DNA of 64,000 nucleotides from Alphaproteobacteria bacterium SO-S41 (GTDB lineage: Bacteria; Pseudomonadota; Alphaproteobacteria; Micropepsales; Micropepsaceae). Under the pieces are notes generated by a model. The model did not search any database. It saw only the letters and a program-made list of their open reading frames with translations, and had not been told where the DNA came from. A program made the position numbers and the translations under genes. Below, one piece after another: positions 7,907-18,654 of this stretch. Position 1 is the stretch's first letter, and the number at the start of each line of letters is the position of its first letter. Location of the stretch: the NCBI GenBank assembly GCA_019670725.1, contig AP024629.1:2418001-2482000 (forward strand), in the 5' to 3' direction.

Positions 7907-7937
7907 AGTTCCCACTTTCCGAAATACGCCATCGCTT

Positions 7938-7958
7938 CTGTGGGCTATTTAACCACAG
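7938..7958. promoter_or_regulatory. Inverted repeat upstream of ssb, possible operator
   Basis: CTGTGG and CCACAG are separated by 9 A/T-rich bases, 32 bp upstream of the ssb start. The symmetry suggests a dimer-binding site or part of the ssb promoter, but no regulator can be named. Confidence 0.3.
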
Positions 7959-8000
7959 CGACTGACGGCATCCCACCCGATCTGTCCATGCAATCCCCAT

Positions 8001-8033
8001 TTGCCTGGGGATATCGTTGTTCCTATTATGTTC
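8001..8033 (+). promoter_or_regulatory. uvrA promoter with overlapping LexA box
   Basis: TTGCCT (8001-8006), a 17-bp spacer and TATTAT (8024-8029) form a sigma-70-type promoter. The -10 box lies inside GTTC-N7-GTTC (8019-8033), the LexA operator form of alphaproteobacteria. LexA bound here would block RNA polymerase directly. The -10 box ends only 5 bp before the uvrA ATG at 8035, so the transcript should begin at or next to the start codon. A 7-bp inverted repeat (7993-8012) overlaps the -35 box. Confidence 0.8.
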
Positions 8034-8034
8034 C

Positions 8035-10965
8035 ATGCCTAGGGATTCGGTCAAGCCGGTGCACAAGTTCCTCTCCGTCCGCGGCGCGCGCGAGCATAAC
8101 CTCAAGAATGTCGACGTGGATCTGCCGCGCGACAGCCTGGTGGTGATCACCGGCCTGTCGGGCTCGGGCAAGTCTAGCCTGGCGTTCGACACGATCTATG
8201 CCGAGGGCCAGCGGCGCTATGTCGAGAGCCTGTCGGCCTATGCGCGCCAGTTCCTGGAGATGATGCAGAAGCCGGACGTCGACCATATCGACGGGCTGTC
8301 GCCGGCGATTTCGATCGAGCAGAAGACGACCTCGCGCAATCCGCGCTCGACGGTCGGTACGGTCACCGAGATCTACGACTATCTCCGCCTGCTGTTCGCG
8401 CGGGTGGGCGTGCCCTATTCGCCCGCGACGGGTCTGCCCATCGAGAGCCAGACGGTCAGCCAGATGGTCGACCGCATCATGACGATCAAGGACGGCACGC
8501 GGCTGTTCCTGCTGGCGCCGATGATCCGGGGCCGCAAGGGCGAGTACAAGAAGGAGCTCGCCGACCTGCAGAAGCGCGGCTTCCAGCGCGTGAAGGTGGA
8601 CGGGACATTCCACGAGATCGACGCGGTGCCCGCGCTCGACAAGAAGAAGAAACACGACATTGAGGTGGTGGTGGACCGCGTCGCGGTGCGCGATGGGCTG
8701 CAGCAGCGGCTGGCGGATTCGACCGAGACGGCGCTGGGGCTCGCGGACGGGATTTTGATCGTCGAATATGCCGACGAGAAGGATGCGGACGGCGATCCGA
8801 AGCGGATGTTGCTGTCGTCGAAGTTCGCCTGCCCGGTGTCGGGCTTCACGATCGAGGAGATCGAGCCGCGGCTCTTCTCGTTCAACTCGCCGCACGGCGC
8901 GTGCCCGAAATGCGACGGGCTGGGAACGCAGATCTTCTTCGACGGCGATCTCGTCGTGCCTGACGATGCGCTGAGCCTGCGCGAGGGGGCGATCGCGCCC
9001 TGGTCGCGGACGCAAACGCCCTCGCCCTATTACGCCCAGACGCTGGAAGCGATCGTGCGCCACTACAAGGCGTCGATGACGACGGCGTGGAAGGACTTGC
9101 CGGCGAAGGTGAAGGACGCGGTGCTGAACGGCACGGGCAGCGACACGATCAACTTCATCTATGACGACGGCCTGCGCCGTTACGAGACCAAGAAGTCGTT
9201 CGAGGGCGTCATCCCCAATCTCGACCGGCGCTGGAAGGAAACGGACAGCGCGTGGGTGCGCGAGGAGCTGGAGCGCTATCAGAACAATGCGCCATGCGAG
9301 ACCTGCGCCGGCTATCGCCTGAAGCCGGAAGCGCTGGCGGTGAAGATCGCCGGCAAGCATATCGGCGAGGTCTGCAATATCTCGATCAAGAAGTCGGATG
9401 CCTGGTTCGGCGATCTCGACGCCAAGCTAACCTCCAAGCAGACCGAGATTGCAAACCGCATCCTGAAGGAAATCCGCGAGCGGCTGCGGTTCCTGAACGA
9501 TGTGGGTCTGGAATACCTGACGCTGTCGCGGAACTCCGGCACGCTGTCGGGCGGCGAGAGCCAGCGTATCCGGCTGGCCTCGCAGATCGGGTCCGGTCTG
9601 ACCGGTGTTCTGTACGTCCTGGACGAGCCCTCGATCGGGCTGCATCAGCGCGACAATGCGCGGCTGCTGGAGACGCTGAAGCGGCTGCGCGACCTCGGCA
9701 ATACCGTGATCGTGGTCGAGCATGACGAGGATGCCATCCGCCTTGCCGACTATGTCGTGGACATGGGACCGGGCGCCGGCATTCACGGCGGCACGATCGT
9801 GGCCGAAGGCACGCTGGAAAAGCTGCTGCAGAACCCAGCGAGCCTGACCGGCCAGTACCTGACCGGCTTCAAGCAGGTGCCCCTGCCCGTCGCGCGGCGC
9901 CCCGCCAACATGAAGCGGGCGCTCAGGGTTGTCGGGGCGACCGGCAATAATCTGCGCAATGTCACGGCGGAGTTTCCGCTGGGCACCTTCACCTGCATCA
10001 CCGGCGTGTCGGGCGGCGGCAAGTCGTCCCTCGTGATCGACACGCTCTACAAGGCGACGGCACGCAAGCTGAACGGCGCGCGCGACATGCCCTCGCCGCA
10101 TGTGCGGATCGACGGGCTGGAGCATCTCGACAAGGTCATCGACATCGACCAGTCGCCTATCGGCCGCACGCCGCGCTCAAATCCCGCGACCTATACCGGC
10201 GCCTTCACGCCGATCCGCGACTGGTTCGCGGGCCTGCCCGAGGCGAAGGCCCGCGGCTATGGTCCCGGCCGCTTCTCGTTCAACGTGAAGGGCGGGCGCT
10301 GCGAGGCGTGCCAGGGCGACGGCGTCATCAAGATCGAGATGCACTTCCTGCCCGACGTCTATGTCCAGTGCGATGTCTGCAAGGGCCAGCGCTACAATCG
10401 CGAGACGCTGGAGGTGAAGTTCAAGGACAAGTCGATCGCCGAGGTGCTCGACATGACCGTCGAGGACGCCGCCCAGTTCTTCAAGGCGGTGCCGTCGGTG
10501 CGCGAGAAGATGGAGACGCTGGAGCGGGTGGGCCTTGGCTATATCAAGGTCGGCCAGCAGGCGACGACCCTCTCGGGCGGCGAGGCGCAGCGCATCAAGC
10601 TGTCGAAGGAGCTGTCGCGCCGGGCGACCGGCAAGACGCTCTATATCCTCGATGAGCCAACGACGGGGCTACACTTTGAGGATGTCCGCAAACTGCTGGA
10701 GGTGCTGCATGAGCTCGCCGACCAGGGCAATACCGTGATCGTGATCGAGCACAATCTGGAGGTCATCAAGACCGCTGACTGGATCATCGATCTCGGCCCG
10801 GAAGGCGGCGACGGCGGCGGCGAAATCGTCGGCGCCGGCACGCCCGAGGACATCGCGGCGATCCCGCGCTCCTATACCGGCCAGTTCCTGAAACCGTTCC
10901 TGAAGCGCAAGACGGCGATTGCGCCGGTCGCTTTGCCCAAAGCCAAGAAGGTCGCGAAGCGCTAG
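8035..10965 (+). CDS. uvrA: UvrABC excinuclease subunit A
   Basis: 976 residues. UvrA is the damage-sensing ATPase of nucleotide excision repair and loads UvrB. Two ABC modules are visible. The first Walker A is GLSGSGKSS (residues 40-48), the second GVSGGGKSS, and there are two LSGGE(S/A)QRI signatures. Zinc-binding pairs are visible in CPKCDG, CETCAG, CEACQG and CDVCKG. I prefer the ATG at 8035; upstream in-frame codons fall inside the LexA box. A GTG at 8059 would give [17 protein letters not shown], also a family-like start. No Shine-Dalgarno precedes 8035, in keeping with a leaderless message. It ends 4 bp inside the convergent gene at 10962. Confidence 0.98.
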
Positions 10966-13448: not shown

Positions 13449-14651
13449 ATGGTCGACGGCCCGCTGAAGTCCAAGAAGTTCCGCGACAATGACCGCCTCC
13501 AGAAGTGCGCTCAATTCGACTCATTCCATGTGACGCCGCGCTCGCCAGCGTCGGACCATGTGGCGAAGATCCAGGAGGCCCTGCGCGAAGTCGATGGCGC
13601 GAACATCCCGGCCAGCGAGAAAGACTATGGCGACTTCACCATCAAGGCCGTAGTCGCGTTCAAGACCAAGCACCGGCTCTTCACCCGCGGCACGCAGACA
13701 ATCGATCCGATCACCGGTACAGGGACCAGCCGCAAGCTCGACGAATTGCTGCTCAAAAAGGAGCCGCCCCCGCCGCCGCCGCGCCCGGGACCGCCCGGTC
13801 CGAAGCCGCCCGGGCCGCCCGTGCCGCCGCCGCCACCCCCGCCGCCCGGACCGATCATCAAGGATCCGGTCGTCGTGCTGTCGGGGCAATGCCAGCTCAT
13901 CGGCGAGTTGAAGGACAACCCCCAGGCGCCCGACCTCCAGTTCGCGGACCCGATCGCCGCGCGTAAATCGCTCGCGACGACCGCCATCACGGCCCCCTTC
14001 GTGATCATGGATGACGGAGCCCTCGAGGGCATCATGAACGGCGTGATGGTTGCGGTGGCCGCCATCGCCGGCCGCGGCGACAGTTTTCTCGCCAATGCCG
14101 AAGGGCTGGCCATGTGCCAGCATTTCTACAAGACGGGCAACGGCACGCCCAAGAACTTCGCCAAAGGCAGCGCGGTCTCTAACGCGGCGCGCGACGATGT
14201 CGGGGGCGCGGCCTTTGTCAGCGAGATCACCTTCGTCCTCAACAACATCATTCGCCGGCACTGGAAAGCCGGACGGATCGATGACCGTGTCATCGCAGGC
14301 GAAGCGCGCACGCAGCAGTTCAAGACGGGGAAATTCGCCGGCGCGCTGACCGCCTTCATCGGCGGCTTCCAAGGATTTCGCGTGGAGATGTGCAATTTCT
14401 CGGTGGACCTTGCGGCCAAGACGTTTTCCTACACGTTGGACGTCCAGATCTTCGACCATTTCGGTGTCGACGAGACCGACATCAACCGTGGCGCCGCCAG
14501 CGACAGCCTGCTGATCGGCGGCGCGATGGGGCCGTTCTTCGTGATGCAGCACGATCGCTCGCTGAAGCCCGTCAATTTCGTGTTGCGCAACTATCGGCCG
14601 TTCCGGGTTTCGATCCGGTTCGACACACAGGTTCAGACGGGAAAAGTCTAA
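13449..14651 (+). CDS. Peptidoglycan-binding-like / polyproline / DUF3289-like protein
   Basis: 400 residues. Residues about 35-103 resemble a peptidoglycan-binding repeat (VAKIQEALREVDG, FTIKAVVAFKTKH, ending in SRKLDEL). Residues 106-136 are almost only Pro and Gly, an extended linker. The C-terminal domain (about 165-400) contains a Trp/Arg-rich helix (NNIIRRHWKAG), then YTLDVQIFDHFGVDETD (329-344) and FFVMQHDRSLKP (363-374). That order resembles DUF3289, a domain I recall in polymorphic-toxin and secreted effector proteins; this is a recollection, not a search. There is no signal peptide. GGAG lies just upstream of the ATG. It is the middle gene of an amidase-X-amidase-OsmC run and could be an exported envelope-targeting protein, but the function is unproven. 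Confidence 0.8.
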   Translation: MVDGPLKSKKFRDNDRLQKCAQFDSFHVTPRSPASDHVAKIQEALREVDGANIPASEKDYGDFTIKAVVAFKTKHRLFTRGTQTIDPITGTGTSRKLDELLLKKEPPPPPPRPGPPGPKPPGPPVPPPPPPPPGPIIKDPVVVLSGQCQLIGELKDNPQAPDLQFADPIAARKSLATTAITAPFVIMDDGALEGIMNGVMVAVAAIAGRGDSFLANAEGLAMCQHFYKTGNGTPKNFAKGSAVSNAARDDVGGAAFVSEITFVLNNIIRRHWKAGRIDDRVIAGEARTQQFKTGKFAGALTAFIGGFQGFRVEMCNFSVDLAAKTFSYTLDVQIFDHFGVDETDINRGAASDSLLIGGAMGPFFVMQHDRSLKPVNFVLRNYRPFRVSIRFDTQVQTGKV

Positions 14652-14672
14652 GTCGCGACTGAAGGAGCTCTC

Positions 14673-16094
14673 ATGCGGTACGATGAATATGCGGCCCTCG
14701 ACGGCGTCGGCATGGCGGCGCTCGTCCGCCGGGGCGAGGTGACGCCGCTCGAACTTCTGGACTGTGCCATCGCGCGCGCCGAGGCGGTGAACCCCAAGCT
14801 CAACGCCATCGTCTACAAGGGCTATGACGATGCGCGCGCCACGGCGAAGGCGATCAACGATATCGAGGCGCCGTTCGCGGGCGTGCCGTTCCTGATCAAA
14901 GACCTCTACTGCGACGTGGCGGGCTGGCCGATGTCGAACGGTTCGCGCTTCTTTCGCGATTACGTGTCGAAGGAGGACAGCGAGTATGTCCGGCGCTGCC
15001 GCAAGGCGGGGCTCGTGATCATGGGCAAGAGCAACACGCCGGAATACGGGATCACCGGCACGACCGAGGGCGCGTATCTCGGACCTTGCCGCAGTCCCTT
15101 CGGCGAGAACCGGATCGCAGGCGGCTCGAGCGGCGGTTCGGCTTCGGCCGTGGCGGCGGGCATCGTGCCGATGGGGCATGCGACCGACGGGCTTGGCTCG
15201 ATCCGCATTCCCGCTTCGTGCAACGGACTGGTGGGGCTGAAGGTCACGCGCGGTCGCAATCCGATGGATTGGAACTCGCCGGTCACCGAATTGTCGGTCG
15301 GGCACGTTGTCTCGGTGAGCGTGCGGGACAGCGCGGCGATGCTGGACGCTGTCGCGGGGCCGGTCGCCAATGCGCCGTTCGCCTATCCCGCGGCGCCGGA
15401 TTCGTTCCTGGCGGAAGCGCTCGCCCGGCCGAAGCAGCTGACGATCGCCTATTCGGCCGAGAACCCGTCGCATACCCCGATGCATCCCGACGTCGCGGCC
15501 GGGTTCGCAGCGACGATCGCAAAGCTGGAGGAACTCGGCCACAAGGTGATCGAGCGGGCGCTGCAGGTCGACTGGCGCAAGCTGTATCGGGCACAGGGCG
15601 CGCACTCCGCCGGGCATTTCGGGGCGGGCATTCTGCAATCGATCGCCGAGGTCGGACGCGAGCCGCAGCCCGGCGACTTCGAGCCGCTGACCATGACCTA
15701 TTGGGAGGGCTCGAAGCGAATGGGCGCCGACCGGTCCGCCTGGGGCACGCTGACGCTGCGGGCCATGGCGCGGGACATCCTGGCGCAGTTCGAGGCCTTC
15801 GACGTGTTCCTGTCGCCGACGATGATTACGCCGCCGCCGGAGATCGGCCTGATCGATACGGTGAAGCTGGACGCCAAAGAACTCGGCAAGCGCCAGTCGC
15901 GCGTCTTCGGCTATACGCCGCCGTTCAACATGACGGGGCAGCCCTCCGTCTCGCTGCCGCTGGCATGGAGCCAGGACGGGCTGCCCATCGGCATGATGTT
16001 CACGGGGCGCTATGCCGACGAGGCGACGCTGCTGAACCTCGCCATCCAGTTGGAGGAAGCGATGCCCTGGAAGCAGCGGCGGCCGGTGACCTGA
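14673..16094 (+). CDS. Amidase-signature family enzyme (second of three)
   Basis: 473 residues. Lys76 (VPFLIKD), Ser152 (AGGSSGGS) and Ser176 (DGLGSIRIPA) fit the amidase triad; the nucleophile loop has Leu where most relatives have Gly. It starts after a clear AAGGAG. It resembles the amidase at 11980-13410 more than the one at 49571-50989, so the first two probably arose by local duplication. The stop codon overlaps the start of the OsmC-family gene by one base (TGATG), showing translational coupling. Substrate unknown. Confidence 0.92.
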   Translation: MRYDEYAALDGVGMAALVRRGEVTPLELLDCAIARAEAVNPKLNAIVYKGYDDARATAKAINDIEAPFAGVPFLIKDLYCDVAGWPMSNGSRFFRDYVSKEDSEYVRRCRKAGLVIMGKSNTPEYGITGTTEGAYLGPCRSPFGENRIAGGSSGGSASAVAAGIVPMGHATDGLGSIRIPASCNGLVGLKVTRGRNPMDWNSPVTELSVGHVVSVSVRDSAAMLDAVAGPVANAPFAYPAAPDSFLAEALARPKQLTIAYSAENPSHTPMHPDVAAGFAATIAKLEELGHKVIERALQVDWRKLYRAQGAHSAGHFGAGILQSIAEVGREPQPGDFEPLTMTYWEGSKRMGADRSAWGTLTLRAMARDILAQFEAFDVFLSPTMITPPPEIGLIDTVKLDAKELGKRQSRVFGYTPPFNMTGQPSVSLPLAWSQDGLPIGMMFTGRYADEATLLNLAIQLEEAMPWKQRRPVT

Positions 16095-16540
16095 TGGCGG
16101 AGCATCGCGCGAACATCGTGTGGACACGGACGTCAGCCGATTTCGCTTACGAGAGCTATAACCGCGACCATGTCTGGCGCATTCCCGGCGGGCTGGAAGT
16201 GGCGGCCTCGTCCGCGCCGGCCTATCGCGGCACCGACGAGCGCATGGACCCCGAACAGGCGCTCGTTGCGGCGCTGTCGAGCTGTCACATGCTCACTTTC
16301 CTGTCGATCGCCGCGCGCAAGCGGCTGGTGATCGACGCCTATGAGGATGAAGCGTCGGGCGTGATGACGAAGAATGCCAAGGGCAAGCTGTTCGTCAGCC
16401 ACTGCACGTTAAGGCCGAAGATCACCTGGGGCGGCCCGGCGCCGTCGGCCGAGGAGATCGAGAAGATCCATCACCTCAGCCATGAGGAATGCTTCATCGC
16501 CAATTCGGTGCTGACAGAGATTACCGTCGAACCGCGCTAG
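16094..16540 (+). CDS. OsmC-family peroxiredoxin-like protein
   Basis: 148 residues. OsmC/Ohr proteins reduce organic hydroperoxides with two cysteines. Here Cys64 (ALSSCHMLTFL) and Cys133 (HEECFIANSV) fit the peroxidatic and resolving positions, and Glu54 in DPEQALVAA sits where the family has its conserved acidic residue. The ATG overlaps the amidase stop by one base. The downstream gene is on the opposite strand only 3 bp away. The link to the amidases suggests an accessory or detoxifying role, but nothing in the sequence defines the substrate. Confidence 0.9.
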   Translation: MAEHRANIVWTRTSADFAYESYNRDHVWRIPGGLEVAASSAPAYRGTDERMDPEQALVAALSSCHMLTFLSIAARKRLVIDAYEDEASGVMTKNAKGKLFVSHCTLRPKITWGGPAPSAEEIEKIHHLSHEECFIANSVLTEITVEPR

Positions 16541-16543
16541 CGC

Positions 16544-16885
16544 TCAGCGCTGGACGGGGTCTTCGGGGATGCCGGGCTTGGTCTTGACCCAGGCGATTTT
16601 GAAGTCCTCGCCGGCTTCGACGAAGCGGACGGTGAAGTCGGCCATGCCGTCGACGAACTGCCATTCGCCGCAGAGTTCGGCAGGTCCTTCCACGCGGCGG
16701 ACGTGAAGTTCGGCCTTGCGCTCGTCCGGCTCGATCTTGACCAGGAAGTCAGGGAAGGAGTCCACGACGCGGACACGCCCCTTGAGGGGATGGCCTTCGA
16801 ACTCGCAGGGACGCTGATCGCCGCCGACGCCCTGGGCGGCGGCGGACGGGATGGCGAGGCACAGCAGCACCACGGCGATACGCAT
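16544..16885 (-). CDS. Small secreted protein, 7(1) septoil-knot family, divergent copy
   Basis: 113 residues with a signal peptide (1-17, ending AAAQ). The mature part has CEFEGHPLKGRVRVVDSFPDFLVKI, then LCGEWQFVDGMADFTVRFVEAGEDFKIAWV. The same layout of a first Cys, GK/R-V, a repeated V-x-S/G-F/M-x-D unit and C-G-x-W is shared with the next gene. That pattern matches what I know of the predicted 7(1) septoil-knot domain, a small beta protein with a seven-crossing torus knot. Repeats here are eroded compared with the neighbour (EPDERKAELHV and VEAGEDFKI replace SFPD units). Two Cys could form a disulphide. Molecular function unknown. Confidence 0.7.
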   Translation of the reverse strand: MRIAVVLLCLAIPSAAAQGVGGDQRPCEFEGHPLKGRVRVVDSFPDFLVKIEPDERKAELHVRRVEGPAELCGEWQFVDGMADFTVRFVEAGEDFKIAWVKTKPGIPEDPVQR

Positions 16886-16918
16886 GGCGGCAGTCTAGGT
16901 TCGGACGGTTAAGGAAGC

Positions 16919-17233
16919 TTACGGCTCGCCGGGGAAGCTCTCGACCATCTGGATCTTGAAGTCCGGGAACGAGGTCACGTACTCGATCGTGAAGTCGGGG
17001 AAGTTCTCGACCATCTGCCACTCGCCGCAGTCGTCGGGGAACGACTCGACCATCTTGACCTTGAGGTCGGGGAAGCTGGTGACGATCTGGACCTTGAAGT
17101 CGGCGCCGCTGCTGACGACCTGGACCTTGCCTTTCAGCACCTTGCCGTGGGCCGCGCAGCCCTGGATCTCTTCTTCCGCTCCAGACACGCCCATCAGAGC
17201 CGCCGCAGCAGCCAGAACCACCAAAAGCCTCAT
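16919..17233 (-). CDS. Small secreted protein, 7(1) septoil-knot family
   Basis: 104 residues from [22 protein letters not shown] lies upstream of this ATG. After a signal peptide comes [19 protein letters not shown], then six units of about 11 residues built on V-x-SFPD-x-K-(V/I), broken once by DCGEWQ. This repeat and the CG-x-W break are the recognisable pattern of 7(1) septoil-knot proteins. It is the better preserved of two tandem paralogs, 33 bp upstream of the other on the same strand, so they form a two-gene unit. It diverges from trmFO, 65 bp away. Two cysteines could form a disulphide. No function is established. Confidence 0.75.
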
Positions 17234-17298
17234 CGCACACTCTCCCATCCGATCGGGGTTTCGCCCGCCGCGCGGCATGTCTATGTTCCGCGCCGATC

Positions 17299-18654
17299 AT
17301 GGCAGAATTCAAGCATATTCATATCGTCGGCGGCGGATTGGCCGGTTCGGAGGCGGCCTGGCAGGCCGCCGAGGCCGGGGCGCACGTCATCCTGCACGAA
17401 ATGCGGCCGGTGCGCGGCACCGAGGCGCATCTGACAGACTCGTTGGCGGAGTTGGTCTGTTCCAATTCGTTCCGGTCGGACGACTGGGAGAACAACGCGG
17501 TCGGCCTGCTACACGCCGAGATGCGGCGCTGCGGCTCGGTCATCATGCGGGCGGCGGACGCCAACCAGGTGCCGGCCGGCGGTGCGCTGGCGGTGGACCG
17601 GCACGGCTTTTCCGCAGCGGTGCAGGCGGCGATCGAGGGTCACCCGAATATCCAGATCCAGCGCGAGGAAGTCGCGGGCCTGCCGCCCGAGGACTGGGAC
17701 AATGTGGTCATCGCGACCGGTCCCCTCACCTCCCCGGCTTTGGCCGAGGCGGTGCGGGGGTTGACGGGCGAGGAGTCGCTCTCGTTCTTCGACGCCATCG
17801 CGCCCATCGCGCATCGCGAGTCGATCGACTTCTCGGTCGCGTGGTTCCAGTCGCGCTATGACAAGGTCGGTCCCGGCGGTGACGGCGCGGACTATGTGAA
17901 CTGTCCGATGAACGAGGCGGAGTACAACGCGTTCATCGATGCGCTGCTCGCGGGCGAGAAGACCGACTTCAAGGAATGGGAGAAGTCGACGCCCTATTTC
18001 GAGGGCTGCCTCCCCATCGAGGTGATGGCCGAGCGCGGCCGCGAGACGCTGCGCTTCGGACCGATGAAGCCGGTGGGCCTGCGCGATCCGCGCACCGGCA
18101 CACGGCCGCATGCGGTGGTGCAGCTGAGGCAGGACAATGCGCTCGGCACCCTGTTCAACATGGTCGGCTTCCAGACCAAGCTGAAGCACGGCGCGCAGAC
18201 GGCGATCTTCCGGATGATCCCCGGGCTTCAGAACGCGCAATTCGCGCGGCTGGGCGGCCTGCATCGCAACACGTTCATCAACAGCCCGCGGCTGCTGAAC
18301 CCAGATCTGACGCTGAAGGCGATGCCGCGGCTGCGCTTTGCGGGCCAGGTGACGGGCGTCGAAGGCTATGTCGAGAGCGCGGCCATCGGGCTGCTGGCCG
18401 GGCGCTTTGCCTCGGGCACCGCCGTGCCGCCACCGCGCGAGACGGCGCTGGGCGCGCTACTCAACCACATCACGCTGGGCGGCGACGCCAAGACGTTCCA
18501 GCCGATGAACGTGAACTTCGGGCTCTTCCCAGATCTGGAGATCGGCAAGCTGCCGAAGGGCCAGGATCGCGGCAAGGCGCGCAAGCAGGCCATGGCACGG
18601 CGCGCGATCGCAGCGATCGAAGGGTGGCTGGGCGTCAGGTCGGAAGCGGCTTAG
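17299..18654 (+). CDS. trmFO: Methylenetetrahydrofolate-tRNA-(uracil-5-)-methyltransferase
   Basis: 451 residues. TrmFO makes ribothymidine-54 in the tRNA T-loop using methylenetetrahydrofolate and FAD. The N-terminal dinucleotide-binding motif is [11 protein letters not shown] (11-21). The CSNSFRSDD block (Cys54) matches a conserved functional cysteine. The [28 protein letters not shown] and [13 protein letters not shown] blocks are family hallmarks. The C-terminus is normal. It is the plus-strand partner of the divergent knot-family pair, and the next gene is convergent. Confidence 0.97.

Follow-up and report, generated by a model that had tools for sequence, protein, structure and literature searches.

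Q9PR55 is the only member of its protein family with a solved structure, and among protein knots it has been called the most complex one known. Brems et al. 2022 reported for this protein of 89 aa a knotted core at residues 27-83 with a 7_1 knot, while its homologue P73136, which has 112 aa and is 48% identical to Q9PR55, has a core at residues 45-94 and a predicted 5_1 knot; the difference between the two is one additional winding in Q9PR55 (PMC9278004). The 7_1 knot of Q9PR55 has been solved in PDB entries 8iwa, 8iwb, 8iwc, 8jrm and 8w68 (PDB titles; PMC13352647).

Here we describe two neighbouring genes of an alphaproteobacterium, copy A and copy B, which lie in the window (the whole stretch of DNA that was analysed, 64,000 nucleotides). 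They encode relatives of the solved 7_1 protein. It is likely, in our judgement, that both products are small beta proteins exported through Sec, that they belong to the torus-knot family of Q9PR55 and P73136, and that they came from a tandem duplication beside trmFO; the steps of knotting, disulfide formation and binding are those that we infer.

The tandem gene pair

Copies A and B were both present in the ORF list as adjacent, codirectional genes on the minus strand (Table 1). The ORF tool placed the start of copy A at 17278. There is also an inner ATG at 17233, and because the ribosome-binding site GGGAGAG stands directly before it, 17233 is probably the true start. The range 16544..17233, in which the preliminary description had placed the pair, is bounded by the copy B stop codon and this inner ATG. 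Read from 17233, copy A has 104 aa, with a signal peptide and a mature part of about 86 aa. The signal peptide of copy B is MRIAVVLLCLAIPSAAAQ. Signal-peptide-like N-termini were found in the two copies and in nearly all other members of the family. No terminator-like site was identified on the strand of the genes in this stretch, so the two copies are probably transcribed together; no promoter-like pattern was found in it either.

Table 1. Features of the knot-gene locus, in positions of the window.
Feature	Position	Strand	Remarks
Copy A, exported knot-family protein	16919..17278	-	phmmer to Q9PR55 E 8.4e-11; phrog_6462 E 2.1e-28; AlphaFold2 pLDDT 92.2
Mature domain of copy A, modelled part	16922..17179	-	six predicted strands; cysteines 8 and 51
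Copy B, diverged paralogue, 113 aa	16544..16885	-	40% identity to copy A; phrog_6462 E 2.3e-17; AlphaFold2 pLDDT 86.9
Gap from copy A stop to copy B start, 33 bases	16886..16918	-	
TrmFO-like tRNA methyltransferase (GIDA family)	17299..18654	+	divergent from copy A; conserved neighbour
OsmC-like protein	16094..16540	+	convergent with copy B
Amidase-family protein	14673..16094	+	conserved neighbour of the knot locus

Family membership

Copy A matched UU089.1/Q9PR55 in a phmmer search (Table 1). Mature residues 10-76 aligned in register apart from one gap of two residues, about 45% of the residues were identical over 67 columns, and the alignment spans the entire knotted core of Q9PR55. The local alignment of copy A with the Q9PR55 stretch scored 128, and shuffled sequences had a mean of 24.9 (sd 5.3, max 50, n=2000), which gives a z of 19.6. 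Copy B aligned with copy A over 107 columns (E 1e-20), with a local alignment score of 154 against 25 for shuffled sequences (sd 4.8, z 27). When copy B alone was compared with Q9PR55, the match was weak: the phmmer E was 1.1, and the local alignment scored 46 against a shuffled mean of 21.7 (sd 4.0, max 50, z 6.0), a score that was exceeded in at least one of the 2000 shuffles. Therefore the membership of copy B rests on copy A and on profiles. The phrog_6462 profile matched both copies (Table 1), and the A2 profile, whose rows include A-type sequences, also links copy B to the family. Pfam gave no match for either copy, and NCBIfam gave a single chance match (E 0.19).

These results confirm the observation of the preliminary description, which had named this family and noted two adjacent, secreted paralogues of no known function. 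As judged from the sequences, copies A and B belong to the torus-knot family of Q9PR55 and P73136, and the domain searches in Pfam and NCBIfam did not place them in another family. The tandem arrangement is borne out by the ORF list, and "secreted" holds in the sense of export signals, as both copies have signal-peptide-like starts. The statement on function is also correct. Neither copy has a family in Pfam or NCBIfam, and phrog_6462 is listed with unknown function.

Repeats and cysteines

Copy A carries six 11-residue repeats of the form V-x-[ST]-F-P-D, and a CGEW break separates the first three from the last three. The mean identity between repeats was 0.50 in copy A and 0.20 in copy B. One SFPD remains in copy B and most of the FP residues are replaced; the frame of valines and turn acids is for the most part intact, and CGEW, most strand valines and both cysteines are retained. 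In copy B the loop from strand 2 to strand 3 is also lengthened by 2 inserted residues, and the C-terminal tail is longer.

Two cysteines were followed through 51 aligned members, one at mature position 8 and one in CG-x-W. Both are present in 49 members and neither in two, and no member has only one of them. This both-or-neither pattern, together with the export signals, points to a probable disulfide between the N-terminal and the CG-x-W cysteine, which would link the N-terminal tail with the central part of the chain.

Predicted structures and type of knot

AlphaFold2, with 38 related sequences as input for copy A and 20 for copy B, gave confident models for both (Table 1), with pTM of 0.78 for A and 0.76 for B; the low part of the B model is only at its ends. 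The strands of A were predicted at mature residues 17-21, 28-32, 39-43, 53-56, 63-67 and 74-78, and those of B at 19-23, 30-34, 43-47, 57-60, 67-71 and 78-82. In the models each strand of A thus has a counterpart in B at the position expected from the alignment, a likeness which has to be read with the fact that the alignment for B contained family members and may pull B towards the fold of A.

The Q9PR55 entries were the sole significant Foldseek matches for both models (E 3.9e-07 for A), and a fold search in BFVD gave no significant match. When the models were superposed on 8iwa and 8jrm in sequence register, the roughly 67 aligned columns gave a TM of 0.29-0.38 and an rmsd of about 10 Å. 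By these values the models of A and B do not share the arrangement of the 7_1 protein Q9PR55 over the full length, although the proteins are related to it. With the freer alignment of VIA-align, 54 residues of A were superposed at 2.0 Å (Z 6.1), and 66 residues of B at 2.9 Å (Z 6.7) onto Q9PR55 residues 15-84. In this alignment the C-terminal end of B is about one repeat off the sequence register, as model residue 89 falls on chain residue 84, where about 95 is expected.

The preliminary description had read the repeats as the signature of a 7(1) knot that was only predicted for the family. The latter point is outdated by the solved structure of Q9PR55. Of the former, the kinship to the solved 7_1 protein stands, but the label 7_1 is unproven for this pair, as the models fail to superpose in register.

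A 5_1 knot in both copies, as predicted for P73136, would make Q9PR55 the member with one extra winding. The same 5_1/7_1 difference is already described between the 48%-identical homologues P73136 and Q9PR55 (PMC9278004), and a 5_1 knot agrees with models that do not overlay the 7_1 structure in register. The copies also fall in the length class of P73136, and for this reason we put 5_1 above 7_1; however, their likeness to P73136 is by length only, and we give this reading a little below an even chance. The same 7_1 knot as in Q9PR55, with flexible packing or a modelling fault as the cause of the poor superposition, seems unlikely to us. It agrees with a copy A sequence that aligns through the whole knotted core, residues 27-83, and with the 66 residues of copy B that superpose by VIA-align. 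But TM was 0.31-0.38 at 10 Å in register despite a pLDDT of 92, and a 5_1 knot is reported for P73136, whose length is similar (PMC9278004). The fold of A and B may also be simpler or unknotted.

Maintenance of copy B

Copy B had been called eroded in the preliminary description. In the meaning of decay this is not the case, as copy B is conserved in the genus, is under purifying selection and has the same predicted strands as copy A. Within the genus, the region was found in four genomes (G000, G002, G003 and G004), and each of them carries the pair. A loss of the pair in G001 was considered and rejected, because trmFO is missing there too and the region is simply absent from the assembly. 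The dN/dS values of the mature domain, from Nei-Gojobori counts in six genome pairs, were 0.07-0.21 for A and 0.09-0.28 for B, and the tree splits the A and B sequences into two strongly supported clades. Copy B is a diverged, maintained paralogue under purifying selection.

If copy B were a duplicate in decay that is turning into a pseudogene, the disappearance of most SFPD turns, with the lower repeat identity in B than in A, would fit. But the gene is open in four of four genomes with the region and has the dN/dS given above, and the cysteines, CGEW and the strand valines are retained, so we hold such a fate to be very improbable; for the sampled genus, decay of copy B is refuted.

We do not claim a B-type lineage common to copy B and the diverged single copies of family f121: their grouping in the tree was flagged as long branches meeting, and leaving one group out did not resolve it. 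Single, strongly diverged genes with GAD or GGD turns, open and of full length, were found in G367, G282 and G179 (loci L044-L046), which come from another family of the class; the two surroundings that were read (L069 and L070) are the same syntenic place.

Gene neighbourhood and distribution

The gene order SecD, PuuD-like, phytoene-synthase-like, trmFO, knot gene(s) and amidases was found in the genus of the window, with the pair, and in genus g4, with one copy. Family f121 keeps the main lines of this order from SecD to the amidases, with one diverged knot copy. The part from trmFO over the knot gene to the amidases is common to several g5 genomes, so that this synteny spans genera g1, g4 and g5 and family f121; in g3, trmFO stands beside a knot gene. 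Genera g2, g6 and g7 have trmFO and no knot gene beside it. Because the order of the locus is conserved across genera, the duplication most likely happened in place, at a stable chromosomal site beside trmFO.

The family is rare in the broader genome samples: 13 of the 385 genomes taken from the class had a member, as did 6 of the 398 taken from the phylum. Further members were found in Bacteroidota, Myxococcota, Succinivibrionaceae and Henriciella. In the search of the family for tandem pairs, the pair was confirmed in the genus of the window, and no tandem pair was seen elsewhere. Beyond the synteny block of the alphaproteobacteria, no gene recurred as a partner, and the neighbours vary from locus to locus.

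Some other features were seen around these genes. Between two amidase genes of the window, at 13449..14651, lies a gene for a protein of 400 aa which has a long proline-rich linker and no Pfam family. An antisense ORF of 868 aa at 13521..16127, over the amidase and its neighbours, is most likely spurious in this GC-rich DNA. At locus L021 (2034..2327), near a contig end, there is a second, exact copy of 17 residues of the end of the knot protein, perhaps an assembly fault.

Phage-associated homologues

Phage records and viral contigs gave no match when they were searched with single sequences, and for two queries none of 50,697 GenBank phages was hit; an alignment-based search found three viral contigs. 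Two prophage-like plasmids of Leptospira weilii carry a knot-family gene with a signal peptide in a baseplate cluster (L086, 3953..4267; L087, 5953..6267). The gene stands there between a 120-aa tail-cluster gene and baseplate J, with which it overlaps by four bases. Viral contig L055 also encodes a family member with a signal peptide (7917..8261); its gene lies among the tail and baseplate genes of a cluster, on the strand opposite to theirs. On the 100 kb viral contig L054 (7929..8243), a knot-family gene follows another small exported protein, and their ends overlap.

Together with phrog_6462, which is a phage family, these homologues would agree with an origin as phage cargo that acts in the host envelope, for example against a superinfecting phage or a lytic enzyme, the chromosomal copies being domesticated. 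However, in the window and in most bacteria the gene is surrounded by housekeeping genes and has no phage genes nearby, no GenBank phage matched the two queries used, and a functional link to phage would be hypothetical. We regard this reading as improbable.

Proposed function of the pair

The chains of A and B would cross the membrane unfolded via Sec, and each would form a (2,n) torus knot once it has reached the periplasm, with 5_1 a little likelier than 7_1. The disulfide from the N-terminal cysteine to that of CG-x-W would then pin the knot and give a very stable, protease-resistant domain. Q9PR55 itself is chemically and mechanically highly stable. The variable turns between the strands may carry a binding surface, a role of the turns in A and B that we put forward as a tentative proposal at most. 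Copy A would retain the ancestral turns and surface. Copy B would keep the frame of strands and disulfide, and because its turns are altered, its loop lengthened and its C-terminal tail longer, it would most likely bind a different partner in the cell envelope.

Taken more widely, it is possible, though somewhat short of an even chance, that there is one exported, disulfide-pinned family in which 5_1 and 7_1 members are made from the same repeat and tied after Sec, and that the duplicate in this genus has swapped most of the repeat signature and kept the knot. One locus supplies here two natural relatives, 40% identical and both under selection, and with this pair it could be tested how a complex knot in a protein fares when the sequence diverges. 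Should both chains be knotted, the knot would depend on the frame of valines, turn acids and cysteines and not on the SFPD signature. Export would also mean that a knot with five or seven crossings ties outside the cytoplasm, without ATP-driven chaperones.

Comparison with known systems

The protein UU089.1/Q9PR55 of Ureaplasma has the same repeat as the window proteins, and in copy A the repeats stand in the same order. The window proteins differ from it by their export signals and by a cysteine pair that co-varies; of the two, Q9PR55 has a counterpart near the CG-x-W position, while its aligned part lacks a cysteine near the N-terminal one. The sixth repeat of the window proteins is complete and ends in SFPG, or in KTKPG in the case of B, and their models do not overlay Q9PR55 in sequence register. 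P73136 is similar to A and B in length, and it is set beside them by description only. The PHROGs family phrog_6462 was built from viral members, whereas the copies of the window are chromosomal and stand beside trmFO.
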